From a virus, in the IMG/VR virus record IMGVR_UViG_3300023180_000129, positions 1 through 41,762 of that record: DNA of 41,762 nucleotides, one strand, 5' to 3'. This document shows, piece after piece, positions 1-37,816 of this stretch. Both the position numbers and the translations under genes were made by a program. The notes beneath the pieces are model-generated. The model was not told the origin of the DNA, searched no databases, and saw only the letters and a program-made list of their open reading frames with translations. The first letter of the stretch is position 1. Each line of letters opens with the position of its first letter.

Positions 1-927
1 TTTACCTGATGCACCGTGGGTTTGGACGTTTTCGGTGCCGTTGCCGTAATCAGCGGAGTGTGAAACGGTGAAATTGTTTTTTGAATAGGAGAGCTTGACG
101 GCAGAGAAAGAGAAGGAAGCAAGGATGCCGATGCGAGAGATGGCCGCTATGAGGTCATCACGGTTCAGGACGACATTTGAATCAAAGGTGGGTGGGACGA
201 GTTTTTCAACGTCTGGGAATTTGCCGTCTAACAGGCGTGAGGTGATGACGGTGCCTGAGCAGGAATAAGAGGCGTGGCCGTTTTTGGAAATGCTGAGGTT
301 GCCCTCAAAGCCTTTTAAGCGGAGCATTTCGCTTAGGGCTTTGGCTGGGACTGTGACGCTGGTGGCGTCGGGGTCGTCTTGGCCTGTGATGGCTAAGCGG
401 TGGCCATCGGTAGCGCAGGCAAAGATTGAGCTATCAGTGATTGAAAGGCGAACGCCTTGCAGGACTTGTTTTGAGGGTTCGTTAGAGGCGGCATAGATAG
501 CCGATTTAATGGTTTCTGAGAACTCGTGATGCAGGGTGGTGAAACCGGAGTCTGGCTCGCCTTCGTCGATATTGGGGAAGTCTTCTATTTCGGCCAGCTG
601 CAGGGTGTAGTTGCTGGTTGGCGCTTTTACCAGGAGCTTCATGCCGTCCGTTTCAAGCGTGACGGTGGCTGCGGGGTCAAGCGTTGAGATTAGGTTGCTG
701 AACAGGTTGAAGGGAACGGCGACGATGCCGGTTTCATCTACCTGGCATTCAACGGAAGTAAAGATGCCAAGTTCTAGGTTGTAGGACTGAGCGCAAAGTT
801 TTTTGGCGTCATAGGAGCCAAAGGTGATGCACTGCAGGATTGGGTGAGGCGAGTTTTTTGGGCCTACAGCACGTTTTACGGTTGATAGCAGGTTGTTGAG
901 CTTGGGCTGCTCAATCTGGATTTTCAT
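1..927 (-). CDS. dnaN: DNA polymerase III beta sliding clamp (DnaN-like), C-terminus cut by the window edge
   Basis: The frame is open from the ATG at 927 to base 1 (309 codons visible of about 370-390 usual for bacterial beta clamps). The N-terminus has the bacterial beta-clamp pattern: a basic helix with LLSTVKRAV, then the HPILQCITFGSYD strand pair and the repeated sheet-helix architecture. A later segment with FACATDGHRLAITG matches the ATDGHRLA signature of the second domain. The family forms the processivity ring for DNA polymerase III; a phage copy would tether host or phage polymerase to phage DNA. It overlaps the upstream gene by 17 nt. Its start is preceded on its own strand by CACCCCC (935-941), seven bases before the ATG, rather than by a Shine-Dalgarno sequence. 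The C-terminal peptide-binding pocket is outside the window. Confidence 0.88.
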   Translation of the reverse strand, partial: MKIQIEQPKLNNLLSTVKRAVGPKNSPHPILQCITFGSYDAKKLCAQSYNLELGIFTSVECQVDETGIVAVPFNLFSNLISTLDPAATVTLETDGMKLLVKAPTSNYTLQLAEIEDFPNIDEGEPDSGFTTLHHEFSETIKSAIYAASNEPSKQVLQGVRLSITDSSIFACATDGHRLAITGQDDPDATSVTVPAKALSEMLRLKGFEGNLSISKNGHASYSCSGTVITSRLLDGKFPDVEKLVPPTFDSNVVLNRDDLIAAISRIGILASFSFSAVKLSYSKNNFTVSHSADYGNGTENVQTHGASGK

Positions 928-1204
928 TTTTGGTGGGGGTGTTGATGAGGTGGCGGATAGCAATTGCCGCAGCTTGCTCCGCTTGGATTCGTGAGATAGT
1001 GCCGCCCAGCTCTTTGTAGATCAGGGAGCCTACCCGGTTGAAGTCTTCAAAAGTTACACCAAGGCGATTGTGCTGGGTAACTTTTGCCTGCCGAATCATG
1101 CGGCGGATGACTTCCTGGCGTGAGATGTCATGAGCCTCAGCCGTCAGGTTGATTTCGTTGAACTCAGGTTCTGAGAGCTTGAGTTTGATTTCTTTGGACG
1201 GCAT
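911..1204 (-). CDS. Small ribbon-helix-helix-like protein, 97 aa
   Basis: Residues 4-38 read as a short strand (KEIKLKLSE) followed by two helices with ISRQEVIRRMIRQA, a pattern like CopG/Arc ribbon-helix-helix DNA-binding proteins. The remainder is helical with an alanine-rich segment near residues 74-86. It could be a small phage regulator, but the family assignment is weak and rests only on this pattern. It lies in the leftward replication operon, overlaps the next upstream gene by 41 nt and runs 17 nt into the sliding-clamp gene, so translational coupling is likely. Confidence 0.6.
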   Translation of the reverse strand: MPSKEIKLKLSEPEFNEINLTAEAHDISRQEVIRRMIRQAKVTQHNRLGVTFEDFNRVGSLIYKELGGTISRIQAEQAAAIAIRHLINTPTKNENPD

Positions 1205-1406
1205 AGCAATCTGCGGCAGTCTCTACAAACGACTTGATTTTGTAGAGGTCACTAGCGATGGAGATTAACAGCTCTTTGGGGATGGGCTGTTGATCTTCGA
1301 AAGCGTTATCGGAGATTGCAGCGGCTGCGGCTTTGGCCTCGTCCAAGAGGTGCAGGAGGGAATGGACGACAGGTTCCTGGCGTTCGGAAACGTCGGGGGT
1401 AATCAC
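1164..1406 (-). CDS. Hypothetical protein, 80 aa, GTG start
   Basis: I do not recognise this protein. It is mostly helical, with an Ala-rich stretch near residues 25-35 and a C-terminal helix containing one Cys. The start is a GTG at 1404-1406 that overlaps the stop of the gene upstream (GTGA arrangement), which supports a genuine coupled start. It sits between a Cys/His-rich protein and the ribbon-helix-helix-like gene in the leftward replication operon. Confidence 0.5.
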   Translation of the reverse strand: MITPDVSERQEPVVHSLLHLLDEAKAAAAAISDNAFEDQQPIPKELLISIASDLYKIKSFVETAADCYAVQRNQTQALRT

Positions 1407-1918
1407 GCTGAGGGGGTAGTGCGGGGTAATTCAAACATGTTTTTTATGCCTTGCAACTGCTGTTTTACGGATGTGATGTAGTCAGGTGCGGTGATGGTCT
1501 CACCTGCTGCCGCACGTCGGCGGAGGTCGTTCATTTGGATTTCGGCCTCTTGCCAGCGGCGAAGCCTGCGGGAATGGATTTCACGGGCTGAAAACTTGTC
1601 GATGCTGATGCCTACGGCCTGGTTGCCGTTTTCGGTTGCTACGGCGATGGGGTCACCGCCAGAGCGGAAACCACCGCGAGCGGTAGAGCCATCAGGGTTG
1701 AGAGATGGGTAGGCGGCCTCGCAATGGCAGATAACGGCAAGGTCAATGCCTGCGTGGCGTTCGCCGTTGGTGGTGGTGTCGTAGTCGGGCAGGTAGTCGT
1801 TGAGGATGCCGTCGCCGTTGGAGACGATGCCGGAATCGTGGCAGGCGTAGCACTTGACGGAAGGTGAGCGCCAAGTGATGTCGCGGTCAGTGGCGTTGCG
1901 TTTGTGAGAGCGGCTCAT
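1403..1918 (-). CDS. Cys/His-rich putative zinc-binding protein, 171 aa
   Basis: The N-terminal half contains CYACHDSG near residues 23-30 and a second CHC group near residues 64-66, so a zinc-finger-like site of the CxxC...CxC type is plausible. The C-terminal half is basic and helical with RRLRRWQ and RRRAAAGE segments. CxxC-DSG fingers occur in several phage replication-associated proteins and in DnaJ-like zinc modules. The location directly downstream of the replication initiator suggests a replication accessory role, possibly helicase loading, but no ATPase motif is present. The ATG at 1916-1918 lies 9 nt after the initiator's stop. Confidence 0.6.
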   Translation of the reverse strand: MSRSHKRNATDRDITWRSPSVKCYACHDSGIVSNGDGILNDYLPDYDTTTNGERHAGIDLAVICHCEAAYPSLNPDGSTARGGFRSGGDPIAVATENGNQAVGISIDKFSAREIHSRRLRRWQEAEIQMNDLRRRAAAGETITAPDYITSVKQQLQGIKNMFELPRTTPSA

Positions 1919-1927
1919 GGGTAGGCG

Positions 1928-2833
1928 TTAAAAGGGCATCCCCTCTGGTGCACCGTTCTCCCACGGTTTGCTCAGTCCTGCCCCGTCAGTGGACAGCAGA
2001 TCAGTTGACCCCAGAAAGGTTTCGTACTTGCCGTCACGGAGCCAGCGGAAGCAATCGGGGAAATAGGCCACAAAGCCGCCTTTGCGCTCCATAGCGCCCT
2101 GTTCCTGCACCGCAGCCGTCAAAGCGCCTTGCAGGGCCTCTGAGGGGCATTTGCGGAGTGCTTTGCGGTATTGCTCCCATGCGAGCGGTTTGGACTGGCC
2201 AGAGGCGCGTTTGCCAATGCTCTGGTACTGGCGCCAGAACTGCTCGAACTCAGGGCTGTAAGGCACCGACGCCTTGGGCTTGCGGCCTCGCTTTTTCGGC
2301 TGTTCGTTTTTTTCCACCTGATCTCGTGGTTGATTTCCGAAATCAACCCCCGCCTCAGACCCAGGTTCAGGCTGGAAATCAACATAGGGTTTTATTGGGT
2401 TTTTATTAGCTGGGTTTTTATTAGGGGTGCTTTTTGGTACTGGGGTACCTAGGTACCTTTTGGCACCCCCCTCCCCCGTTTTGAGGGGATCCCTTTTGGT
2501 ACCGGGGTACTTTTTGGCACCCCCTTCCTCGCGGTGCAGCCGGACGGTGTAAACCGCTGTTCGCCCTGGCCGTGGCGTGCGCAGAACCCAGCCCTCTTCC
2601 ACAAGCCAGTGCAGCGCCTTCACCACGTCCTGCACCTTGATCCCCGTTCGATCAGCGATGGTGGCGCGTGATGCCCAGCAGCCTTCCTCGCTGCCCCAGC
2701 CGAAGCGATGCAGCCAGAGGTAAACGCAAATAATTTGCTTTCCGCCGCGCTCTGGCATCAGGTCCATTAGCTCGTATGGAATTGATGCGTAGGCCGGCGT
2801 CCTGTAAGCGCGTGACACGTTGTAAAATTCCAC
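1928..2833 (-). CDS. Phage replication initiator (lambda O-like organisation), GTG start
   Basis: This 301-aa protein has two domains. Residues 1-100 form a winged-helix/HTH region (GCWASRATIADRTGIKVQDV followed by a helix ending in LVEEGWV), as in phage O/DnaD-type initiators. Residues about 195-280 carry the pattern FEQFWRQY...KPLAWEQYRKAL...FPDCFRWLRDGKYE, common in the C-terminal domains of phage replication proteins. The middle is a low-complexity Lys/Pro/Asn linker. Its DNA holds palindromes and direct repeats (2329-2526), so the origin is probably inside the gene, as in lambda O. Such proteins bind origin iterons and recruit the host helicase. The start is a GTG at 2831-2833; no in-frame ATG lies closer upstream. 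Confidence 0.75.
   Translation of the reverse strand: MEFYNVSRAYRTPAYASIPYELMDLMPERGGKQIICVYLWLHRFGWGSEEGCWASRATIADRTGIKVQDVVKALHWLVEEGWVLRTPRPGRTAVYTVRLHREEGGAKKYPGTKRDPLKTGEGGAKRYLGTPVPKSTPNKNPANKNPIKPYVDFQPEPGSEAGVDFGNQPRDQVEKNEQPKKRGRKPKASVPYSPEFEQFWRQYQSIGKRASGQSKPLAWEQYRKALRKCPSEALQGALTAAVQEQGAMERKGGFVAYFPDCFRWLRDGKYETFLGSTDLLSTDGAGLSKPWENGAPEGMPF
2387..2424 (+). repeat. Three AT-rich direct repeats (GGGTTTT(T)ATTAG)
   Basis: Copies lie at 2387-2396, 2397-2409 and 2412-2424; the last two are identical over 13 bases. They sit between the palindromic half-sites and the TTTTGG(T/C)AC iterons and would be a natural DNA-unwinding element for the candidate origin. Confidence 0.6.
2444..2457. 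repeat. Perfect 14-bp palindrome GGTACCTAGGTACC
   Basis: This fully symmetric sequence is flanked by TTTTGGTAC/TTTTGGCAC repeats in the candidate origin and may be an initiator-binding site. A related GGTACCGGGGTAC copy lies at about 2498-2510. Confidence 0.55.
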
Positions 2834-2845
2834 TGGAATGTTCGA

Positions 2846-2878
2846 GAGCGGCCCTTACCTGCGGTCGCTCTTTTTTTT
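2846..2878 (+). terminator. Rho-independent terminator facing the plus strand
   Basis: An 8-bp stem (GAGCGGCC at 2846-2853 with GGTCGCTC at 2863-2870, one G-U pair) and a 9-nt loop are followed by eight T residues (2871-2878). On the minus strand, the coding direction here, the T run would precede the hairpin, so it does not terminate the leftward operon. Either an unannotated rightward transcript ends here or the site insulates the initiator gene from antisense transcription. Confidence 0.6.
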
Positions 2879-2894
2879 GTGCGTGAGAGACAGC

Positions 2895-3134
2895 CTATTG
2901 GGGCTGAGTTTCGTAAAAGCTGTTCAGGGTCGATTCGTGGCGGCCCAGGAGTGACGCGGCCTCAGCGTGGTAACGCCTTATATCGGCATCGCTTTCCCAT
3001 TTGGGCGGCAGGCCCTGCCAGTCCCGTTCCTCGTCTTTGCTAATTTCTGCATCAATGCGGTCATGGATGGCCCGCGTTAATGCCATGTCTGTGACTAGGG
3101 CTTCAAGCAGTTTCTGGCGCTGTTCAGGTGTCAT
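2895..3134 (-). CDS. Hypothetical protein, 79 aa
   Basis: I do not recognise this protein. It is acidic and helical (MTPEQRQKLLEAL at the N-terminus, RYHAEAASLLGRHESTL near the C-terminus) with no Cys. It is the first gene of the leftward operon and is divergent from RusA, so the 71 bp between them should carry back-to-back promoters. The ATG at 3132-3134 is the natural start. Confidence 0.5.
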   Translation of the reverse strand: MTPEQRQKLLEALVTDMALTRAIHDRIDAEISKDEERDWQGLPPKWESDADIRRYHAEAASLLGRHESTLNSFYETQPQ

Positions 3135-3161
3135 CTAGGGGCCAAAAGCAGCGCTAAGTTA

Positions 3162-3190
3162 CTGACATTCTCTTGGGCCCGTAGTGATAC
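3162..3190 (+). promoter_or_regulatory. Sigma-70-like promoter for the early rightward genes
   Basis: CTGACA (3162-3167), a 17-nt spacer and TGATAC (3185-3190) match the -35/-10 consensus well. Transcription would start only about 10 nt before the RusA GTG, giving an almost leaderless mRNA. Confidence 0.4.
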
Positions 3191-3205
3191 AGGCCAGAAC
3201 GCCTA

Positions 3206-3649
3206 GTGACCATTCACGTTGATGTTTTCGGCATTGTGCCAGCGCCTCAGGGCAGCAAAAAGCACGTTGGCCATGGCCGCATGGTTGAAGCGAGCAAGCG
3301 GGTGAAGCCTTGGCGGGAGGCGGTCAGGCAAGCGGCTTTGGACCTTAACGAGCCGGTGATTGAAACTGCCTGCTCTGTCTCAATGGTCTTCCGGTTCCCT
3401 CGGCCTAAGAATCACTTTAAGGCGAACGGAGAGCTGAAAGACACAGCGCCTGGTTGGCTGACGGTGAAGCGGAATGACCTTGACAAGCTGTGCCGGTCAA
3501 CGCTGGACGGGTTGAGCCATACGGTGAAGCAGGGCCGGAGCTTGCTGGCTGATGACTGCCTAGTGGTGGCGATTGCAGCAGAGAAGCGGTATTGCATTGG
3601 CCAGGAGCAACCGGGCGCCTGTATCACGGTCATACCGATCAATTACTGA
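3206..3649 (+). CDS. rusA: RusA-family Holliday junction resolvase
   Basis: The 147-aa protein has the RusA layout: an N-terminal strand with APQGSKKHVG, then FRFPRPKNHF, a central KRNDLDKLCRSTLDGL segment and LADDCLVVAIAAEKRY. The two Asp residues in NDLDK and the DD in LADDCLV correspond to the catalytic acidic residues of RusA, which cuts four-way junctions symmetrically as a dimer. In phages it resolves recombination intermediates before packaging, which fits the RecE-like nuclease and annealing protein encoded downstream. The start is a GTG at 3206; the length (147 aa) is slightly above typical RusA (about 120 aa). Confidence 0.88.
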   Translation: MTIHVDVFGIVPAPQGSKKHVGHGRMVEASKRVKPWREAVRQAALDLNEPVIETACSVSMVFRFPRPKNHFKANGELKDTAPGWLTVKRNDLDKLCRSTLDGLSHTVKQGRSLLADDCLVVAIAAEKRYCIGQEQPGACITVIPINY

Positions 3650-3730
3650 CTGCAGTGAGCAGGAAGGGGGAGCACGAGGTATAGTGAGCAGATCGGCAGG
3701 CGACTGCCGGTTGCACATCGACAACTGCAC

Positions 3731-3895
3731 ATGACTCCCAAGCAACGCCTTGACCGGGCATTGCAGATCAGGGCCGCCCTGACTGCATTGATGACCGACG
3801 ACGAGGCCGAAACCTACGAGGTGATCGACGAGCACTTGACCGATTACATCAACGAGCTTTCGCTCGCGTATGAGGCAACGCTCGATGAGCTTTGA
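3731..3895 (+). CDS. Small acidic hypothetical protein, 54 aa
   Basis: An ATG-started frame of 55 codons lies directly upstream of a strong terminator. The product begins MTPKQRLDRALQIRAAL and ends in an acidic helix (YEATLDEL). Its start resembles that of the 79-aa protein at 2895-3134 (MTPEQRQKLLEAL), so the two may be distantly related. Function is unknown. The call rests on its position between RusA and the terminator and on the helical composition. Confidence 0.5.
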   Translation: MTPKQRLDRALQIRAALTALMTDDEAETYEVIDEHLTDYINELSLAYEATLDEL

Positions 3896-3901
3896 GACTT
3901 A

Positions 3902-3921
3902 GGCCCTTCGGGGCCTTTTTT
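3902..3921 (+). terminator. Rho-independent terminator after the RusA segment
   Basis: GGCCC / GGGCC form a stem closed by a TTCG tetraloop (3902-3915), followed by six T residues. It ends the first rightward transcription unit, so the genes from 4095 onward need their own promoter. Confidence 0.8.
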
Positions 3922-4030
3922 ATTGCGTGCTAGTTGCCAGCAGGGCCAAGCGTGTGTAAAAGGGGGTGCGAGGAGATAGGGGGAGGGGGTCTCACACCAG
4001 CCCCCTCTTTTTTTGTGCCAATTCAAGAGC

Positions 4031-4094
4031 TGTCACCCTGGGGGTAGTAGGGGTGACCACAGGGGTTATCTTTAGTTCATCGGCAATCACCCCC
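4031..4094 (+). promoter_or_regulatory. Early upstream element, copy A (64 bp)
   Basis: This 64-bp sequence aligns without gaps to 4644-4707 at 51 of 64 positions. Conserved parts are TGTCAC, CTGGGGGTAG, AGGGGT, a -10-like TATCTT (4067-4072; TATATT in copy B), TTCATCG and a terminal CACCCCC that abuts the start codon. GGGGGT near the 5' end and ACCCCC at the 3' end are inverted repeats. No canonical -35 lies 16-18 nt before the -10-like hexamer, so an alternative promoter or operator is likely. Confidence 0.6.
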
Positions 4095-4382
4095 ATGGCT
4101 CGCACTCTCTCCACCCGCTCCGTTCTCAAGCGCCTCCGCGATGGTGGCTTCGACATGACCGCCGTAATTGAGCAGTCACGCGGTCGCATCGAAATTGGCC
4201 ACATCAACGACGAGACGCAACGCGCTGACTGGGAGCAACGCCAAGCAAACATTGAACTGGCCGAGCAGGCTTCTGAGCTTCTGGGCTGGGGTTGGTTCTG
4301 CAGCGGTTACGGCACCGTTCACCTCTGGGCCGATCGTGGCTGCCCCGTGCACCGCGAGCTTGTTTCCCTGAACATCGACTGA
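4095..4382 (+). CDS. Small hypothetical protein, 95 aa
   Basis: I chose the ATG at 4095 because it follows immediately after the conserved upstream element; a longer frame back to 3966 would run through that element. The N-terminus is basic (MARTLSTRSVLKRLRDGG) and the centre is acidic/helical (DETQRADWEQRQANIELAEQ). The C-terminal part has GWGWFCSGYGTVHLW and one further Cys. No family is recognised. It is the first of a run of five tiny genes ahead of the recombination module and probably an early host-directed protein. Confidence 0.55.
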   Translation: MARTLSTRSVLKRLRDGGFDMTAVIEQSRGRIEIGHINDETQRADWEQRQANIELAEQASELLGWGWFCSGYGTVHLWADRGCPVHRELVSLNID

Positions 4383-4389
4383 TCTGCCT

Positions 4390-4404
4390 GGCCCCTTCGG
4401 GGCC
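4390..4404 (+). terminator. GC hairpin without a T-tract, probable attenuator or weak terminator
   Basis: GGCCCC...GGGGCC forms a tight hairpin at 4390-4404, nearly identical to the stem of the terminator at 3902, but it is followed by TCACTTG rather than T residues. It sits between two tiny early genes and could reduce read-through or stabilise the upstream mRNA end. Confidence 0.35.
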
Positions 4405-4426
4405 TCACTTGACACCCCAAAGAATC

Positions 4427-4630
4427 ATGACCATTACCGAAGCACGCAAAACCCTCACTCAGCTTGGGTATGACCTTTTGGGCTATCAAGCCATGGGCAG
4501 AGAGCGCCGTTATTGCGTTTGGCGCGGCCAGCTTGCCGAGTTCTGCAACCTGCCCACTGGCGGCTCTTTTGACAAGGACGGCTTAAAGGCTTTTGCGGCT
4601 GAGGTAGTGGCTTCAATCAGCTCCCACTAG
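4427..4630 (+). CDS. Small hypothetical protein, 67 aa
   Basis: The frame starts at the ATG at 4427, eight bases after CACCCC (4413-4418). The product begins MTITEARKTLTQLGYDLLGY, continues with a basic patch (RERRYCVWRG) and ends in an Ala-rich helix. No family is recognised. It lies between the two copies of the 64-bp upstream element, so it probably shares a transcript with the 95-aa gene before it. Confidence 0.5.
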   Translation: MTITEARKTLTQLGYDLLGYQAMGRERRYCVWRGQLAEFCNLPTGGSFDKDGLKAFAAEVVASISSH

Positions 4631-4643
4631 CCAACCCCCTAAC

Positions 4644-4707
4644 TGTCACACTGGGGGTAGCAGGGGTTAGGAGAGGGTCTATATTTAATTCATCGACAGG
4701 CACCCCC
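4644..4707 (+). promoter_or_regulatory. Early upstream element, copy B (64 bp)
   Basis: This is the second copy of the element at 4031-4094, with 51 of 64 positions identical and no gap. The -10-like hexamer is TATATT (4680-4685) and the CACCCCC ends one base before the ATG at 4709. The same order and spacing of all blocks in both copies argue for a functional regulatory unit rather than chance similarity. Confidence 0.6.
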
Positions 4708-4708
4708 A

Positions 4709-4897
4709 ATGAAAACCTTCACCACCGCCACCCGCTACTACGCCGCTCAAGTCAACGGCGTCACCCTCGGTTCCTGGTACGTCGATCAGGCCAAAGCCCA
4801 GGCCAAAGTCGATTCCCTCAACCGTGAATGGAACGGCGAGCGCACCTTCACCGTGCACAGCTGGGTTGCTGACACCTTCACCGCACACGAGCGCTGA
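4709..4897 (+). CDS. Small hypothetical protein, 62 aa
   Basis: The ATG at 4709 follows copy B of the upstream element by one base. The product begins MKTFTTATRYYAAQVNGVTL and contains YVDQAKAQAKVDSLNREW, suggesting a small strand-helix-strand fold. No family is recognised. Its dedicated regulatory element suggests early, strong expression. Confidence 0.55.
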   Translation: MKTFTTATRYYAAQVNGVTLGSWYVDQAKAQAKVDSLNREWNGERTFTVHSWVADTFTAHER

Positions 4898-4931
4898 TCG
4901 CGCTTTTCCAACCACTCACCCCCGATCAATC

Positions 4932-5072
4932 ATGAAAGCCATTGCATTCCTCGCAGTCCTCACCGGAATCAGCGGACTTTTCCTACATCAGGCCAACAGC
5001 AGCCTGCATCAAATGACCATCGCAGATTGCAACGCCGGTATTCAACGCGCTTGCACTTACCTGCAGAAGTAA
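4932..5072 (+). CDS. Tiny membrane or exported protein, 46 aa
   Basis: An ATG at 4932 opens a 47-codon frame. Residues 1-20 (MKAIAFLAVLTGISGLFLHQ) form a signal peptide or single membrane helix; the rest carries two Cys residues that could form a disulfide outside the cytoplasm. CACCCCC lies eight bases upstream (4917-4923). Function is unknown. Confidence 0.5.
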   Translation: MKAIAFLAVLTGISGLFLHQANSSLHQMTIADCNAGIQRACTYLQK

Positions 5073-5143
5073 CGGGACAGAGCCACCGCCACCCCCGTAG
5101 CAATGGCCTATCCCTACCCGCTGCGACGGGTGCCAAATTTTAC

Positions 5144-5172
5144 TTGCATTCACTGTTCACCCCTGGTAATCT
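5144..5172 (+). promoter_or_regulatory. Sigma-70-like promoter of the recombination operon
   Basis: TTGCAT (5144-5149), exactly 17 nt, then TAATCT (5167-5172). Start of transcription would fall near 5179, about 28 nt before the ATG at 5207. It lies in the 134-bp gap after the 46-aa gene; nothing else was seen in that gap. Confidence 0.55.
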
Positions 5173-5206
5173 CTCCTCAGCCTTCTGGCTACCACCCCCA
5201 CAAACA

Positions 5207-5395
5207 ATGACCGAATCGCAAGAGCGGCACACGCTGCTAACCGCGCAACATTTTGGTGGTGCATTTGTCAAAGCACTTGCACGCGCCGGCCTCGTAGCTG
5301 ACCTCAGAAACCGCGAACGCATCTTTCAGGCATTCCCTGAAATCCTGGGCCTTTACGGCCCCCGTGGAGACTTCTACAGCGAGGATCTCGGGTGA
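5207..5395 (+). CDS. Small hypothetical protein, 62 aa
   Basis: The ATG at 5207 follows CACCCCC (5193-5199) by seven bases and the promoter by about 35. The product is helical (MTESQERHTLLTAQHFGGAF, then a Lys/Arg-rich helix) with FPEILGLYG near the end. Its stop overlaps the GTG of the RecE-like exonuclease (GTGA), so the two are translationally coupled. No family is recognised. A longer in-frame reading back to 5027 would run through the promoter and is not favoured. Confidence 0.6.
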   Translation: MTESQERHTLLTAQHFGGAFVKALARAGLVADLRNRERIFQAFPEILGLYGPRGDFYSEDLG

Positions 5396-6177
5396 CAATT
5401 ACTAACGCCGAATACCACGCTGACCCCTCCGTCAGCGCCTCCCATCTCCATGCCGTTGCCGTCAGCCCGGAGAACTACTACCGCAAATATGTTGATCCCC
5501 ACCGTCCTGCTGTCGAGCCAACTAGCGCAATGCGCTTTGGCACTCTTGCCCATTGTGCAGTTCTCGAACCCGACGAATTGCACGCCCGATTCGCTGTTTG
5601 TCCACCACGCAACACCAAGGCAGGAAAGGAGCGAGCAGCGGAGCTGGAAGCAGCGGGAATCGAAGTTGTTTCATCACTTGATTGGGCATTGGCAGGAAAG
5701 CTCTCAGAAGCAGTCAGGCGCCACCCAATCGCCAGCGAATTGCTCTCCGATGGCAAGGCAGAGCAGTCCTTCTGGTGGACTGATCTAGACACCGAATTGC
5801 GCTGCAAATGCCGGCCTGATTGGATGTGCCGCGATACGGTCATTGATCTCAAGACAACTACCGACGCATCACCAGCAGGCTTTGCACGATCGGTAGCCAA
5901 GTTCCGCTACCACGTCCAACAGGCGCATTACATGGCCGGCACCTTCGCTACCCGGTTTGTCTTTATCGCCGTTGAGAAAACCTTTCCCTACAGCATCGGG
6001 GTTTACGAACTAGACGACGATGCATTGGCCGAAGGTCAGCGCCTAGCTGATCGTGACCTGCGCCGAATCAAGCGCTGCAGGGAAAACGACAACTGGCCTG
6101 GCTACAGCGCCGAAATCACCTCGCTCAGCCTTCCTGCCTGGGCCTACGACACCAGCACCATTGCAGAGGATTTCTGA
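5392..6177 (+). CDS. RecE-like PD-(D/E)XK exonuclease (DUF3799 family)
   Basis: The 261-aa protein begins with the family signature: YHADPSVSASHLHAVA, SPENYYRKYVDP and AMRFGTLAHCAVLEP. The nuclease core is visible as E124 (AEQSFWW), D143 (CRPDW), D152 with K154 (VIDLKTT) and a YHVQQAHYMAG motif at 173-183. Homologues degrade the 5' strand of duplex DNA and hand the 3' overhang to an annealing protein, encoded here two genes downstream. The GTG start overlaps the stop of the preceding gene and the stop overlaps the next ATG. I am confident of the family; the coupling to the annealing protein is inferred. Confidence 0.9.
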   Translation: MTITNAEYHADPSVSASHLHAVAVSPENYYRKYVDPHRPAVEPTSAMRFGTLAHCAVLEPDELHARFAVCPPRNTKAGKERAAELEAAGIEVVSSLDWALAGKLSEAVRRHPIASELLSDGKAEQSFWWTDLDTELRCKCRPDWMCRDTVIDLKTTTDASPAGFARSVAKFRYHVQQAHYMAGTFATRFVFIAVEKTFPYSIGVYELDDDALAEGQRLADRDLRRIKRCRENDNWPGYSAEITSLSLPAWAYDTSTIAEDF

Positions 6178-7013
6178 TGACCACCCCCAATTTCGAAGTT
6201 GTGCAGATGACGCCCGAATGGGCGCAACACCTGCTGGCCAATCAAAACGGCCATAACCGCAAAATGAAGCCCCGTCAGGTCAGGCACCTAACGGAATCAA
6301 TCAAGCGGGGTGAATGGAAGCTGACCAGCCAAGGCATCGCCATCGGCAACAACGGCCAACTGCTAGATGGTCAACACCGTTTAGCTGCCATCCGTGATGC
6401 AGGCCATGCCGTGCCGGTGCTGCTTGCCACTGACTGCGATCCGTCAATCTTCACCGTGATTGACACGGGCTCGAAGCGGTCTACAGGCGACACCCTTTAT
6501 CTGCTGGGTGCACCGCAACACAACCAAGCCGCTGCTGCCATCCGCCTGATCATGCTGGCCAAACAGCACAAAACAGGTAGCTGGGCAAATGCCAAAATGG
6601 TTTTCAGCAATGATCAAATACAGCAGTATTACTTACAGGATCAGTTGCGCATAGATACTTATGTGCGCCTGGTTTACAACTCGGTGAAAAATTTCAAGAT
6701 GATCAATCGCGGTGCATTGACCGCGTTCTGCATCTTGGCTTTAGATAAAGAACACTACCCAGCAACAGTTGAAGATTTCGTCAAGGCGTTGACCACTGGC
6801 GCCAACCTGCCATCTGATAGCTCCGTTCTGGCCTTCAGAAATGCAATCGTAAACCGCACGATCTTTGCCCAGCGCGGTGGCTCAAGTGTCCAGCAGCTTT
6901 GGATTTCTTGCCTTACCAAGTGCTTCAATGATTGGTATTTGGAGCGCAGCCTGAAGGTGTTCAAAGCGCCCAAACAAATGCCCGAAATTGCCCACAACGT
7001 ATTCCCCGCATGA
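6177..7013 (+). CDS. ParB-like N-terminal domain protein, 278 aa
   Basis: Residues 22-105 carry the ParB/sulfiredoxin-fold signature: NRKMKPRQVRHLTESIKRGEW, IAIGNNGQLLDGQHRLAAI and FTVIDTGSKRSTGD. The remaining 170 residues are helical and unassigned. Proteins of this type are frequent in phages and may bind DNA or act as nucleases/ATP-dependent regulators; the function is not established. It is embedded between the exonuclease and the annealing protein with overlapping stop/start codons on both sides, so it is made in step with the recombination proteins. Confidence 0.8.
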   Translation: MTTPNFEVVQMTPEWAQHLLANQNGHNRKMKPRQVRHLTESIKRGEWKLTSQGIAIGNNGQLLDGQHRLAAIRDAGHAVPVLLATDCDPSIFTVIDTGSKRSTGDTLYLLGAPQHNQAAAAIRLIMLAKQHKTGSWANAKMVFSNDQIQQYYLQDQLRIDTYVRLVYNSVKNFKMINRGALTAFCILALDKEHYPATVEDFVKALTTGANLPSDSSVLAFRNAIVNRTIFAQRGGSSVQQLWISCLTKCFNDWYLERSLKVFKAPKQMPEIAHNVFPA

Positions 7014-7684
7014 CCATCCCTAACCTCTCCGGCGTCATCACCCTTGACGACGTACACAAGAAAGGCACGGGCAGCTTTCAAGCGTCTTACGTTGCCTGGT
7101 CTAAAACTGCCCAGCTGCTTCACCAGCACGCGCCTGGGTTTGACTATCACCTGCGGCCTAATGCAGATGGTGAGCTGATCCACAAGGCGCCTGATGGCAC
7201 TGGCTTTGTCGTCGGCTATTTCACTGGCCCTGATGGCATCGTCACCGCTGATTTCCCTTTTCCTTGTATGGACCATCGGAATAATCCGATTGCCTATGAC
7301 AAGATCAGCGCACGGGTTCTGACCGATTCACACCGCCGCTCTTTGGCTGCCTGCGCTTGCTTTGCATTCTCCCTGGCCCATGAGCTTTGGAGCAAGGAAG
7401 AGGTGCAGAGTGCTGCCAATGAAACCATGCCATCTGGTGATGCTCCGGCTGCTCAACCAAGCAAGCAAAAGCCAGCAGTGCAGCAAAGCCAACCGCAATC
7501 TGCAGTGCTAGGCAAAACAGCTATCGCCGGCCTGAAAGTTATTCGTGGCACCTCTTCACTCAAAGAGTTGAAAGACGTTGGCGCACGGCTAACTGATCGG
7601 CACAAAAAAGGCGACTTGAACGACACCGAACACCAAGAGTTGATGCAGGCTCTGCTTGAAAAAGAAACCCAGCTGGCTAAATGA
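7010..7684 (+). CDS. Sak3/DUF1071-like single-strand annealing protein
   Basis: The ATG at 7010 overlaps the upstream stop (ATGA) and gives 224 aa. Residues 20-130 match the pattern of DUF1071/Sak3 annealing proteins: a YVAWSKTAQLLHQHAPGF helix, GFVVGYFTGPDGIVTADFPF strands, then DSHRRSLAACACFAFSLAHE. After a Gln/Pro/Ala linker (about 145-170) there is a helical C-terminal domain. These proteins anneal complementary strands exposed by the partner exonuclease. The position after RecE-like nuclease and close to SSB supports the role. The family call is by pattern and could instead be another phage annealing superfamily. Confidence 0.68.
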   Translation: MTIPNLSGVITLDDVHKKGTGSFQASYVAWSKTAQLLHQHAPGFDYHLRPNADGELIHKAPDGTGFVVGYFTGPDGIVTADFPFPCMDHRNNPIAYDKISARVLTDSHRRSLAACACFAFSLAHELWSKEEVQSAANETMPSGDAPAAQPSKQKPAVQQSQPQSAVLGKTAIAGLKVIRGTSSLKELKDVGARLTDRHKKGDLNDTEHQELMQALLEKETQLAK

Positions 7685-7914
7685 TTGACGACACAAAACC
7701 CTATTTGACAACAGCACAATTAGCGCATCGCTACGGCCTTAGCCCGGCTACAGTTCGTGGCTGGCGCAAAAGCACCAACAAAGGCAACCCACAAGGGCCA
7801 AAGTGGGAAATGCTGCCAAAGATCGGCGTAGCAGCCGGCCAGCCTCGCGTTCGCTATTACCTGGCCGACGTGCTGGCATTTGAAGAGGCCAAGTCCATCA
7901 CCCCCATTAACTGA
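7681..7914 (+). CDS. MerR/excisionase-like HTH protein, 77 aa
   Basis: Residues 8-30 (LTTAQLAHRYGLSPATVRGWRK) form a helix-turn-helix of the AlpA/excisionase type, and a second part has VRYYLADVLAFEEA, the usual C-terminal wing and helix. Such proteins act as excisionases or small transcription factors. No integrase is visible in the window, so an excisionase role is only a possibility. Its start overlaps the annealing-protein stop. Confidence 0.7.
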   Translation: MIDDTKPYLTTAQLAHRYGLSPATVRGWRKSTNKGNPQGPKWEMLPKIGVAAGQPRVRYYLADVLAFEEAKSITPIN

Positions 7915-7915
7915 A

Positions 7916-8227
7916 ATGCTGAACATCACAGCCCATGGCCGCCTCGGTCGGGATCCAGAACTTAAAACCATCGGAGATGATCAGGTCGCCCGATTCTCTA
8001 TCGGGTGCAACACCAGCAAAGAGGAAACCACCTGGGTCAATTGCACCGTTTGGGGTCGTCGCGCTGATGTGGTCATGCGTTTTCTCACCAAGGGTGCTGC
8101 GGTCACCATCGCTGGCAGAGGAAAGCTGAGCACCTACACAAAGAAAGATGGCACCCAAGGCACCACGCTTGAGGTAAGCGTGTCAGATTTCACCCTGCCC
8201 CCTCGTGAAGAGAAGGAACCCTTCTGA
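7916..8227 (+). CDS. ssb: Single-stranded DNA-binding protein (OB fold)
   Basis: The ATG at 7916 gives 103 aa with the SSB pattern: MLNITAHGRLGRDPELK, VARFSIGCNTSKEETTWVNCTVWGRRADVV and LTKGAAVTIAGRGKLSTY. It ends in EKEPF, resembling the acidic/Phe C-terminal tail that recruits partners, but lacks a long linker. It protects ssDNA during replication and recombination. CACCCCC (7899-7905) lies ten bases before the start. Confidence 0.9.
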   Translation: MLNITAHGRLGRDPELKTIGDDQVARFSIGCNTSKEETTWVNCTVWGRRADVVMRFLTKGAAVTIAGRGKLSTYTKKDGTQGTTLEVSVSDFTLPPREEKEPF

Positions 8228-8379
8228 TGGTTGATCACGTTGAAGAGCTAAAGCGGCAAGAGCGCCTAGAGCGTCTTTATGTCGAAGATGGCCGCGACAA
8301 TCCCGAACACCCGTTTCATGCGTTATACACAGGGCTGCATCAACAGACCTTGAACGATGATGACCGAAGCGGATCTTGA
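8227..8379 (+). CDS. Small hypothetical protein, 50 aa
   Basis: The ATG overlaps the SSB stop (TGATG) and the frame runs 51 codons. The product is charged and helical at the N-terminus (MVDHVEELKRQERLERLYV). No family is recognised. It overlaps the next gene by 23 nt in another frame, consistent with a tightly packed operon. Confidence 0.45.
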   Translation: MVDHVEELKRQERLERLYVEDGRDNPEHPFHALYTGLHQQTLNDDDRSGS

Positions 8380-8536
8380 GGCCCTGTTTCGTAAATGGTG
8401 GGAGGAGTCTTACCCCTTCGCTCCACCTAACAAACAGAGCGTTAGCAGCCATGTGGCATTCGCTGCTTGGTTGCTGCGCTGCGAAGCCGTTCTGAACGTT
8501 GGCGATCCTGACGACAAGCCAGGTTGCACGATCTAA
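8357..8536 (+). CDS. Small hypothetical protein, 59 aa
   Basis: The frame starts at one of two adjacent ATG codons (8357 or 8360). It contains FRKWWEESYPFAPP and FAAWLLRCEA, a pattern seen in many short phage proteins of unknown function. It precedes a GC-rich hairpin at 8547-8580. Confidence 0.45.
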   Translation: MMTEADLEALFRKWWEESYPFAPPNKQSVSSHVAFAAWLLRCEAVLNVGDPDDKPGCTI

Positions 8537-8546
8537 GAGGGTGGCA

Positions 8547-8580
8547 GGTGGGGGGCTTGCCGGAGCAGTCCCCCCCTCAC
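8547..8580 (+). promoter_or_regulatory. Strong GC hairpin with TTGCCGGAGCA in the loop
   Basis: A run of six G (8550-8555) pairs with the C run 8571-8576, extended by GGT/ACC outside a bulge. The loop contains TTGCCGGAGCA, which recurs at 8626-8636 just upstream of the DUF3310 gene. No T-tract follows, so it is more likely an RNA processing or regulatory structure than a terminator. The rest of the 109-bp gap shows no gene. Confidence 0.45.
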
Positions 8581-8636
8581 CGTCGCCTGCCGTCGGCGGA
8601 CGCTTAGAGATTCCTCAAAAATGGTTTGCCGGAGCA
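8557..8636 (+). repeat. Direct repeat pair TTGCCGGAGCA (8557-8567 and 8626-8636)
   Basis: Two exact 11-base copies lie 69 bp apart, the first in the loop of the GC hairpin and the second 9 bases before the ATG at 8646. The second copy contains GGAG and could act as the ribosome binding site, while the first would be presented in a loop, suggesting a decoy or protein-binding site. Confidence 0.5.
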
Positions 8637-8645
8637 ATTTAGCGA

Positions 8646-8855
8646 ATGCCTTTTGACATGGTGGCCAATCCACCGCATTACAACCAAGGCCACATCGAAT
8701 GCATCGACGCCTTAGAAGCAGCCCTAGGCCCTGATGGCTTCAAAGCCTTTTGCCGTGGCAATGCCATTAAATACCTCTGGCGGGCTGACTTGAAAAATGG
8801 CGCAGAGGATTACCGCAAAGCGGCTTGGTATGTCGATCGTTTGATTTCTTCCTGA
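8646..8855 (+). CDS. DUF3310 family phage protein, 69 aa
   Basis: The protein matches DUF3310 nearly throughout: NPPHYNQGHIECIDALEAAL, then FCRGNAIKYLWRADLKNG and EDYRKAAWYVDRLI. The family is common in phages (also called nucleotide kinase-like or SaV-like) and is of uncertain biochemical function. GGAG at about 8631-8634 is a candidate ribosome site. It lies directly upstream of the sigma factor gene. Confidence 0.85.
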   Translation: MPFDMVANPPHYNQGHIECIDALEAALGPDGFKAFCRGNAIKYLWRADLKNGAEDYRKAAWYVDRLISS

Positions 8856-8888
8856 TCCCTGCTACGTTACCCCCGGTCAATTCTTTTC

Positions 8889-9788
8889 ATGGCTACCGAT
8901 TCGCTCTCTGAATACCTCAACGCAATCGGTCGTTACCCCCTGCTTTCTGCTGAGCAGGAAATTCAGCTCTCACGCCAGATTCAGCGCTGCCTAGAGCTAA
9001 AGCAAAAGGAAGGTGAGCTGACCAGCAAAGAGCGCCGCGAAATCAAGATTGGCGAACGGGCAAAAGAAAAGATGATTAAGTGCAATCTGCGCTTAGTCGT
9101 CAACGTCGCCAAAAAGTACATCCCCAAGCTGCAAGGCGGCGGCATGGATTTAATCGACCTGATCCAAGAGGGGAACGTCGGTCTAAATCGTGCTGCTGAA
9201 AAGTACGACGGCGCCAAGGGGTACAAGTTCTCTACTTATGCCTTCTGGTGGATCAGGCAAGGCATCACGCGAGCACTGGCCACCCAGGCCCGTTTGATTA
9301 AGGTGCCGCAGGACATGCTCAATTTCGTAGGCAAAGCCTTTGAGGTAGAGCGGAACTACGTTCAGGAGCATGGCAAGCCGCCAAGCATTGAATACATCGC
9401 CAATACCCTTGGCGTCAGCGTTGACCGCTTGCGGATGGCCTTAGAGCGCAGCATCCCGCATCGCAGCCTTGATCAGATGATGCTGGAAGACGGCAAGACG
9501 CTAATTGACCTGATTCCTGATACCAGCACCGAAGAGGAAGACTACACCCAAGTAGAGAAGACTGAGCGTAGCGAGCAACTCAACCTGGCCTTTTTTCGAC
9601 TAGAGGAACTCGATAGGGATATTGTCATTAAACACTATGGCATCAATCAGCCACGGCCAATGACGCTAGATGAGATTGCCAAAAGCCATAGCCTCTGCCG
9701 TCAATCAGTTGGCGTGCGCAAGCAAAAGGCAATGAAGATTCTGCGGCTGACAATGGCGCAACGATTAAAAGAGCCCGCATTTCACTAG
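8889..9788 (+). CDS. Phage-encoded sigma-70 factor, cyanobacterial group-2-like
   Basis: The 299-aa protein has region 1.2 at 3-33 (SLSEYLNAIGRYPLLSAEQE), region 2 at about 55-135 including LRLVVNVAKKY, DLIQEGNVGL and YKFSTYAFWWIRQGITRAL (regions 2.1-2.4), region 3 at about 140-215 and region 4 at about 230-290. There is no long region 1.1, as in cyanobacterial group 2 sigmas. Region 2.4 is well kept, so a TATAAT-like -10 is expected. In region 4.2 the usual RERVRQIE recognition helix reads CRQSVGVRKQK, so -35 preference is probably altered. It is the last gene of the rightward early operon and is the obvious candidate activator of late or middle transcription. Confidence 0.92.
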   Translation: MATDSLSEYLNAIGRYPLLSAEQEIQLSRQIQRCLELKQKEGELTSKERREIKIGERAKEKMIKCNLRLVVNVAKKYIPKLQGGGMDLIDLIQEGNVGLNRAAEKYDGAKGYKFSTYAFWWIRQGITRALATQARLIKVPQDMLNFVGKAFEVERNYVQEHGKPPSIEYIANTLGVSVDRLRMALERSIPHRSLDQMMLEDGKTLIDLIPDTSTEEEDYTQVEKTERSEQLNLAFFRLEELDRDIVIKHYGINQPRPMTLDEIAKSHSLCRQSVGVRKQKAMKILRLTMAQRLKEPAFH

Positions 9789-10037
9789 GAGCTGATGCCA
9801 CCAGCTAGGCGACTGATTCTCAGAGTCGGCCAGAATAGCTTTTAACTCGATTTCATTGATATAAAATGCCGCCTGCTTAATCAGCTTCTGCTGGTAGGCA
9901 TTTTGTTTCATCAGAGTGGCACACAATTTTGTGACCTCTTCGGCTTTAGTCTGTTGCAGAATCGTTCGCGCTTGTGATTCAATCCTAAATTCTTCTTCTT
10001 CGGTTAGGTTTACAACCATCCACTGCCCCCAGGACAT
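9765..10037 (-). CDS. Small helical protein with weak NblA resemblance, 90 aa
   Basis: The segment from residue 10 reads LTEEEEFRIESQARTILQQT, followed by KLCATLMKQNAYQQKLIKQA. The order LT-x-E-x-x-F-(K/R)-(L/I), a Q-Q turn, then L-x-KQ...YQ..L-K-Q resembles the two-helix NblA family, which triggers phycobilisome degradation in cyanobacteria and is carried by some freshwater cyanophages. The spacing in the second helix is about five residues shorter than in NblA and there is an extra C-terminal tail, so this may be an unrelated coiled-coil protein. Two starts are possible (10037 or 10019). It overlaps the sigma gene's 3' end by 24 nt on the opposite strand. Confidence 0.55.
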   Translation of the reverse strand: MSWGQWMVVNLTEEEEFRIESQARTILQQTKAEEVTKLCATLMKQNAYQQKLIKQAAFYINEIELKAILADSENQSPSWWHQLLVKCGLF

Positions 10038-36624: not shown

Positions 36625-37816
36625 CGTATCGAGCGCGTAGATGATCCAAGGTTAATTCGGACCCATCATCACGAACCAGCTTGGCGATGGCATCTTTGGC
36701 GCCATACTTTTCCGTCAGCTGGTCAAAGTAGGCAATCTTTTTAGCGCCAATTGCTTTGGCCTTGGTTGCAGGCGATTGCTTGGCCAGCCACTCGCCATAG
36801 CTCTGATTAGCAGGCACTTGGCCACCAGTACTGGCTCGGGTTCCTTCCTTTGGCGGTTCAAACCCAAGTTCCTCATAGTCAATCACCGGCACCGTTGTAG
36901 ACCGGCAACCAAAGTGCTGCGGTGGTTGTGGCCCCTTGCCATACTCAAACTCGCGGCCATCTAATGCAGCGCAAATGGCACTGGTCCTGGTGTCCAGCGT
37001 CGCAACGTAGCGATACCGCTTGGTTATGTCTTGGTTCGCCTCATACACCGACTGGCTGGCGGCATTGGCTACTTGGTTCACGCTTGTGCGCACCAAGGTG
37101 ATCACCTGATTATTTGCTGCCTTGGTCAGCTGGCCACCTGCCAACGCAAGCTGTCTGACGGACAACGGCCCGAAATCAGCAAACTCCAAACGGCCAACTA
37201 AGCGCTTGGCAATGTCTTGGGTGGTTTCGCCAGTCAGAAGGCCATTCCGTACAACCTGTCCAAATAACTGCGCCTGCTTTTCGGCAATGCCCCGAAACGC
37301 CTTATTGACCACCTCGCCATTGGGCAGCGTGATGGCAGTGCCCTGAGTAGCGGTCAGGCTGAATGCTTGCCTCGCACCCTCTACGCCTTCGACTGCCTTA
37401 AACAGATCGTCGCTCAGCGCCACCACATTGATTTGCGTTGGGTCAGCCACCACCACCGCCTGCGCAAATTGCGGGCTGATCTCAACCGTGCGCACCGCAT
37501 TCCGTCCGCCAACCGGCAACGCCTTGCGCAGCTGATCCTCTACAAACTCGCCCTGCAGCATTGCCAGGCCCTGCAGTTCACGCGCTGCAACCGCAGTGCT
37601 ATCACCAGCCCAGCCATCCAAACTGCTTTTCAACTGGGCCAAAATCGCCCGCAATCTGGCAGCCTTTACAGGTGCTGTCGCGTCATCAATCCTGCGCAGC
37701 TGGGCCACTGCATCCAAGATGATTTCGTCGTATGCCACCACCAAACGCTTGGCAACGCTATTGCCGTAGCGGTTCAGATCAATGGCATTCCGATATAAAG
37801 ATTCGGGGGTGCTCAT
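36605..37816 (-). CDS. Mu F/SPP1 gp7-like minor head protein, 403 aa
   Basis: The N-terminal two-thirds is helical. The C-terminal domain has the head-morphogenesis signature: RYRYVATLDTRTSAICAALD at about 282-301, then QPPQHFGCRSTTVPVI with the conserved D-T-R, C-x-x-D-G and HFGCRS residues. The family sits inside the portal and may be ejected with DNA. It is coupled to the preceding gene (4 nt overlap) and precedes the 52-aa basic gene. Confidence 0.88.
   Translation of the reverse strand: MSTPESLYRNAIDLNRYGNSVAKRLVVAYDEIILDAVAQLRRIDDATAPVKAARLRAILAQLKSSLDGWAGDSTAVAARELQGLAMLQGEFVEDQLRKALPVGGRNAVRTVEISPQFAQAVVVADPTQINVVALSDDLFKAVEGVEGARQAFSLTATQGTAITLPNGEVVNKAFRGIAEKQAQLFGQVVRNGLLTGETTQDIAKRLVGRLEFADFGPLSVRQLALAGGQLTKAANNQVITLVRTSVNQVANAASQSVYEANQDITKRYRYVATLDTRTSAICAALDGREFEYGKGPQPPQHFGCRSTTVPVIDYEELGFEPPKEGTRASTGGQVPANQSYGEWLAKQSPATKAKAIGAKKIAYFDQLTEKYGAKDAIAKLVRDDGSELTLDHLRARYGAIKER

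Follow-up and report, generated by a model that had tools for sequence, protein, structure and literature searches.

The 41,762 bases of virus record G000, referred to in the following as the window, come from a siphophage; among named phages, those of Synechococcus are its closest relatives. Tracts of CACCCC recur in this window just upstream of early gene starts. Comparison with related phages suggests that the tracts are part of a modular 5′-leader RNA element of the early genes in a group of siphophages that infect Synechococcus/Cyanobium-type cyanobacteria, which would support initiation independent of a Shine–Dalgarno (SD) sequence. We hold this reading, which was drawn from sequence comparison, with moderate confidence.

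CACCCC tracts in the window

The early-type genes span positions 1–9800 and include dnaN, a lambda-O-like initiator, RusA, small open reading frames (ORFs), exonuclease VIII, a recombination-type gene, SSB and a sigma factor; the late structural genes are on the minus strand, from about 15500. The label "early" was assigned from gene function and position, and the gene starts were our own calls rather than curated ones. CACCCC was found within 30 nt upstream of the start in 8 of 23 early genes and 0 of 46 late genes (Fisher p = 6e-5; p = 8e-4 when ssb and dnaN were left out), and its reverse complement did not occur there. When the early upstream sequences were dinucleotide-shuffled 1000 times, the mean was 1.2 and the maximum 5. 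The longer CACCCCC was present in 14 copies in the window, compared to 4.9 expected, and none of 100 shuffles reached 14. SD-like 5-mers, meanwhile, preceded 11 of 46 late starts and 1 of 23 early starts (p = 0.05).

An earlier note on this DNA had placed CACCCC(C) 0–10 bases before seven early starts and TACCCCC 14 bases before the sigma start at 8889, and had proposed that the tract stands in place of an SD sequence, while several late genes carry GAGGTGA or GGAGGT. All of these sites are present, the cited late examples are correct, and the excess of the tract over shuffled sequence that the note had asked about was confirmed. The substitution also holds in that the genes with the tract lack an SD sequence: GGAG and GAGG cores were absent from the window leaders that carry it, and CACCCC(C) is unable to pair with the CCUCC at the 3′ end of 16S rRNA.

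Not all of the sites are equally informative (Table 1). The tract before ssb is coding sequence for ITP(L/I)N, the conserved C-terminus of the preceding gene product, where relatives use ACA CCA or ACT CCA, and the dnaN tract likewise overlaps codons of the preceding gene. The sigma tract may lie outside the RNA, because it directly follows a possible −10 sequence, TACGTT; C-rich leaders or tracts are also found before sigma in S-CBS1, KBS-S-2A, L054 and L083. With these three sites set apart, five are considered solid. The interpretation in the earlier note is partly supported. The tract marks early-type genes only, keeps to one strand, is tied to start codons and recurs in related cyanophages, but two of its seven listed instances are coding sequence and the sigma instance is ambiguous; recognition by S1 or another protein and a switch between early and late initiation signals are still hypothetical.

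Table 1. Sites and leader features in the window, with the distance to the start codon where applicable.
Feature	Position	Strand	Details
CACCCCC before dnaN	935–941	−	7 nt before ATG 927; in last codons of ORF 911–1204
Leader cassette A	4017–4095	+	G-rich repeats; −10 TATCTT 4067–4072; CACCCCC 4088–4094; 0 nt to ATG 4095
Hairpin GGCCCC-TTC-GGGGCC	4390–4404	+	Upstream of CACCCC; stem predicted by folding
CACCCC, next base A	4413–4418	+	8 nt before ATG 4427
Leader cassette B	4630–4708	+	−10 TATATT 4680–4685; CACCCCC 4701–4707; 1 nt to ATG 4709
Possible hairpin AGCGC-TGATC-GCGCT, then TTTT	4890–4904	+	Upstream of CACCCCC; complementarity by eye, minimum-energy fold pairs other bases
CACCCCC	4917–4923	+	8 nt before ATG 4932
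CACCCCC	5090–5096	+	6 nt before ATG 5103 of a 35-aa ORF; additional to the earlier list
Promoter-like TTGCAT, N17, TAATCT	5144–5149, 5167–5172	+	Candidate promoter for the 5207 leader; by eye
Mini-hairpin AGCC-TTCT-GGCT	5179–5190	+	Near inferred 5′ end; computed fold
CACCCCC	5193–5199	+	7 nt before ATG 5207
CACCCCC before ssb	7899–7905	+	10 nt before ATG 7916; explained by codons of preceding gene
TACCCCC before sigma	8868–8874	+	14 nt before ATG 8889; possible −10 TACGTT 8863–8868 overlaps

Cassettes A and B are 76% identical. The stop codon of the 35-aa ORF (5103–5210) overlaps ATG 5207, and this ORF is intact in strain L004. Other copies of CACCCCC lie elsewhere. Those at 2464 and 2518 occur as repeats within the gene for the replication initiator, where direct repeats GGTACC...TTTTTGGCACCCCC at 2424–2530 are possibly replication-origin repeats. 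The copy at 3962 sits at a probable terminator; the G-rich stretch 3960–4015, with an apparent hairpin and T run seen by eye, is probably a terminator upstream of cassette A. The copies at 6182–6188 and 37805–37811 are within codons 2–5 of two genes (MTTP and MSTP), immediately after the start.

A hairpin, a tail and a linker in related phages

In three named phages, CACCCC upstream of starts was again confined to early genes: 3/24 early vs 0/38 late in KBS-S-2A, 3/17 vs 0/26 in S-CBS1 and 5/35 vs 0/29 in S-H1, with no reverse complement in any of them. Among 608 unique homolog upstream sequences from environmental relatives, gathered via their exonuclease and sigma genes, CACCCC occurred 23 times forward and once reversed. 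These counts come from relatives that are not independent, with many contigs being fragments and the motif forms having been picked after looking.

In relatives, the tract belongs to a larger arrangement that opens with either a promoter or a gap between cistrons; a short hairpin follows, then CACCCC, a linker with almost no U and the ATG of a small early gene. Many environmental relatives repeat one such leader (hairpin, CACCCCAAACCGAGARCC, ATG), as many as four times within the flank sampled, and the exact tail is present in 117 viral contigs. Some copies follow TTGAC-N17-TAnnnT promoters, identified by eye, and begin near the inferred start of transcription; others lie between cistrons, where no −10 was visible by eye, and keep the hairpin and tail. 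To avoid circularity, 26 non-redundant leaders were chosen by their tail alone, ignoring hairpins, and the set was cleaned by hand. In 24 of these 26, a stem of 5 bp or more ended no further than 8 nt from ACCC, while shuffles gave a mean of 5.6 and a maximum of 12, and a comparable stem was present in 23% of other early upstreams. This stem-length test was used in place of a covariance model or pair counting, since MAFFT alignments A1 and A2 misregistered the stems. The stems include GCCGG/CCGGC, GGAGGC/GCTTCC, GCAGG/CCTGC, CGAGCGG/CCGCTCG, CGGCG/CGCCG and GCCGGA/TCCGGC; so many different sequences suggest that pairing is kept while the sequence changes. The tail has a U content of 1.7%, compared to 21% in other early and 23% in late sequences, a figure that describes the tail rather than testing it, since the letters themselves helped to define the tail.

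The leaders also appear to move between genes. Orthologs of gene 4095 at 77–80% identity (L567–L570) share the −10 region found in the window and are preceded by a CACCCC leader with a GGGG/CCCC hairpin, whereas the ortholog in L571 (72%) carries a GGAGGC-GAGA-GCTTCC cassette instead, suggesting that leaders are exchanged as cassettes. Before the gene that precedes the exonuclease, a mini-hairpin followed by C-rich sequence is found in the window (5179–5199), L034, KBS-S-2A and L006, with differing stems. In L571, three different leaders (at 3001, 3344 and 3577) have a common tail ending in TAGAGCA (or TAGAGCAAA) before the ATG, unlike other phages. A pattern search for the GGCTACCACCCC leader was discarded, as the contigs among the matches listed were unrelated or unspecific. 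Rfam 15 gave no gathering-level match in L077, L073 or L105, and only chance-level matches in window positions 3600–9200.

In predicted structures, the start regions behind these leaders stand out as unusually open. The mean unpaired probability around the start was 0.68 for motif leaders, 0.49 for other early genes and 0.46 for late genes. Shuffling only the upstream 38 nt lowered it from 0.68 to 0.61 and 0.59, and 0 of 40 shuffles reached the observed value; in these models, part of the openness comes from composition and the rest from arrangement. The leader would hold the AUG region single-stranded, allowing ribosomes to start without an SD sequence. The hairpin and U-poor linker might in addition resist RNase E. 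Stable 5′-terminal hairpins, such as that of the ompA leader, shield mRNA from this enzyme. For another cyanophage, it is documented that phage transcripts are protected against RNase E. Like ompA-type hairpins, those described here sit in short leaders, at the inferred 5′ end or close to it, with protection being hypothetical here; the differences are that conservation falls on the tract and linker and that some of the leaders are intercistronic. The early/late contrast would then separate genes that each bring a leader from genes of late operons, which have SD sites.

Weighing the readings

Several observations count against a modular leader that supports SD-independent initiation. Computed folds of the window leaders gave a 6-bp hairpin for 4427 and a 4-bp hairpin for 5207, and the possible stem of 4932 was not chosen by the minimum-energy fold; the 4095 and 4709 leaders had no computed hairpin. 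The window's tentative assignment to the hairpin family is therefore based on CACCCC, its position, orthologous leaders and two or three putative hairpins. The occurrence of the tract in related cyanophages, which the earlier note had suggested checking, was borne out in the three phages listed above and failed in S-CBS3, S-LBS1 and MED4-184, where the early-only bias was absent. The near relatives L005 and L006 are mostly without CACCCCC. In L567–L570 the CCCC is paired inside the hairpin, hence the tract is not always single-stranded. Early genes of relatives also carry SD motifs, and when k-mers in all early upstreams were ranked against dinucleotide shuffles, SD 5-mers came first, with ACCACC among the top 6-mers, which suggests that the hairpin–CACCCC element is one of several signals.

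That the tracts merely reflect composition and coding coincidence is very improbable. The ssb and dnaN tracts, and several of the instances in relatives, spell Thr-Pro codons at the end of a gene, but the intergenic instances remain significant when ssb and dnaN are removed, exceed shuffles and recur in relatives, and the late-gene, reverse-strand and shuffle controls largely refute this explanation. A role at the DNA level, as an early promoter part or operator, had been raised in the earlier note. Several leaders do have promoter-like sequences immediately before them, the sigma tract shares sequence with a possible −10, and G-rich repeats (GGGGGTAGNAGGGGT) in the opposite orientation are present at 4036–4066 and 4653–4679, just upstream of the −10 in cassettes A and B. 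Similar GGGGT repeats occur at the matching position in L568 and L570; the contigs matched by a pattern for the G-rich repeat were unrelated or unspecific. Since CACCCC is never reversed within 30 nt of early starts, its distance is set by the AUG, and hairpin and tail are kept in intercistronic leaders without a visible −10, we consider a DNA element quite unlikely.

The remaining alternatives accept an RNA signal but assign it a reader. Unrelated genes within a lineage share one tail (CACCCCC for the window, CACCACCCCACA for S-H1, CACCCCAAACCGAGARCC for many contigs and the TAGAGCA-ending tail for L571), and this uniformity within a genome fits a trans-acting partner. The hairpin and C tract could then be a binding site for an RNA-binding protein of phage or host origin, or for a small G-rich RNA, that switches early genes on or off jointly. 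However, recombination between cassettes could equally keep the copies alike, the stem sequences are free to vary and the partner is still hypothetical, leaving this explanation doubtful. Direct reading of the C run by the cyanobacterial ribosome, for example by S1, as an SD substitute would draw on the host. In most of 30 Cyanobiaceae genomes of very different GC content, tufA leaders (L392–L421) keep a C run followed by GATTCTTT before the ATG, and the window sigma leader resembles them. On the other hand, CACCCC preceded 15 of 991 ORFs in a marine Synechococcus vs 0.5% within genes, a weak enrichment, and pgk leaders do not conserve the C run, so that a host-wide C motif was rejected; nor is a liking of S1 for C runs established. 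We give this explanation little credence. A host origin of the exact tail was likewise rejected, with 0 exact and 5 one-mismatch matches in 300 Cyanobiaceae genomes, and the tufA C run is best treated as a lead for a related signal. A more far-reaching proposal makes the hairpin and C tract a non-SD initiation signal dedicated to the early genes of cyanosiphophages. A specific factor from the phage or the host would read this signal and early translation would be separated from late, with the host tufA leader using a related C-run signal. This proposal appears to us unlikely.

Relation to known start signals

The nearest kind of element is the start-associated sequence (SAS/ESAS) of Cluster K mycobacteriophages, a 13-bp GGGATAGGAGCCC-like sequence with an SD core, AGGAG (PMC3203893). 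Both are short, asymmetric repeats in one orientation, a few nucleotides from the starts of non-structural genes; like this leader, SAS/ESAS are common to unrelated genes and nearly absent from hosts, and about half have an inverted repeat just upstream (PMC3203893). The SAS/ESAS inverted repeats are unsupported as RNA hairpins (PMC3203893), whereas the leader described here has predicted hairpins with varied stems, a C tract and a U-poor linker. Its tail is CACCCC-based and lacks the AGGAG core that marks SAS/ESAS, and both the sequences and the phages are unrelated. From these features, we class the leader as a putative new variant of phage start-associated sequences, outside the SAS/ESAS family. 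SD-independent initiation through local lack of structure (PMC3121790) resembles our case in the open start region, predicted here, and in having no SD sequence; that study reports an absence of conserved sequence and structural motifs, both of which recur in hairpin–CACCCC leaders. According to a study of two other cyanophages, S-SSM6a and S-SSM6b, cyanophages imitate the SD usage of their hosts (PMC6847405). No description of the hairpin–CACCCC leader was found in the literature searched, which included few subscription papers, and it is apparently undescribed.

For the question of how cyanobacteria and their phages choose start codons without an SD sequence, a portable leader provides a short, defined sequence. 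The leader, which precedes many unrelated early genes, could be a marker of such genes and find use as an expression part in cyanobacteria.

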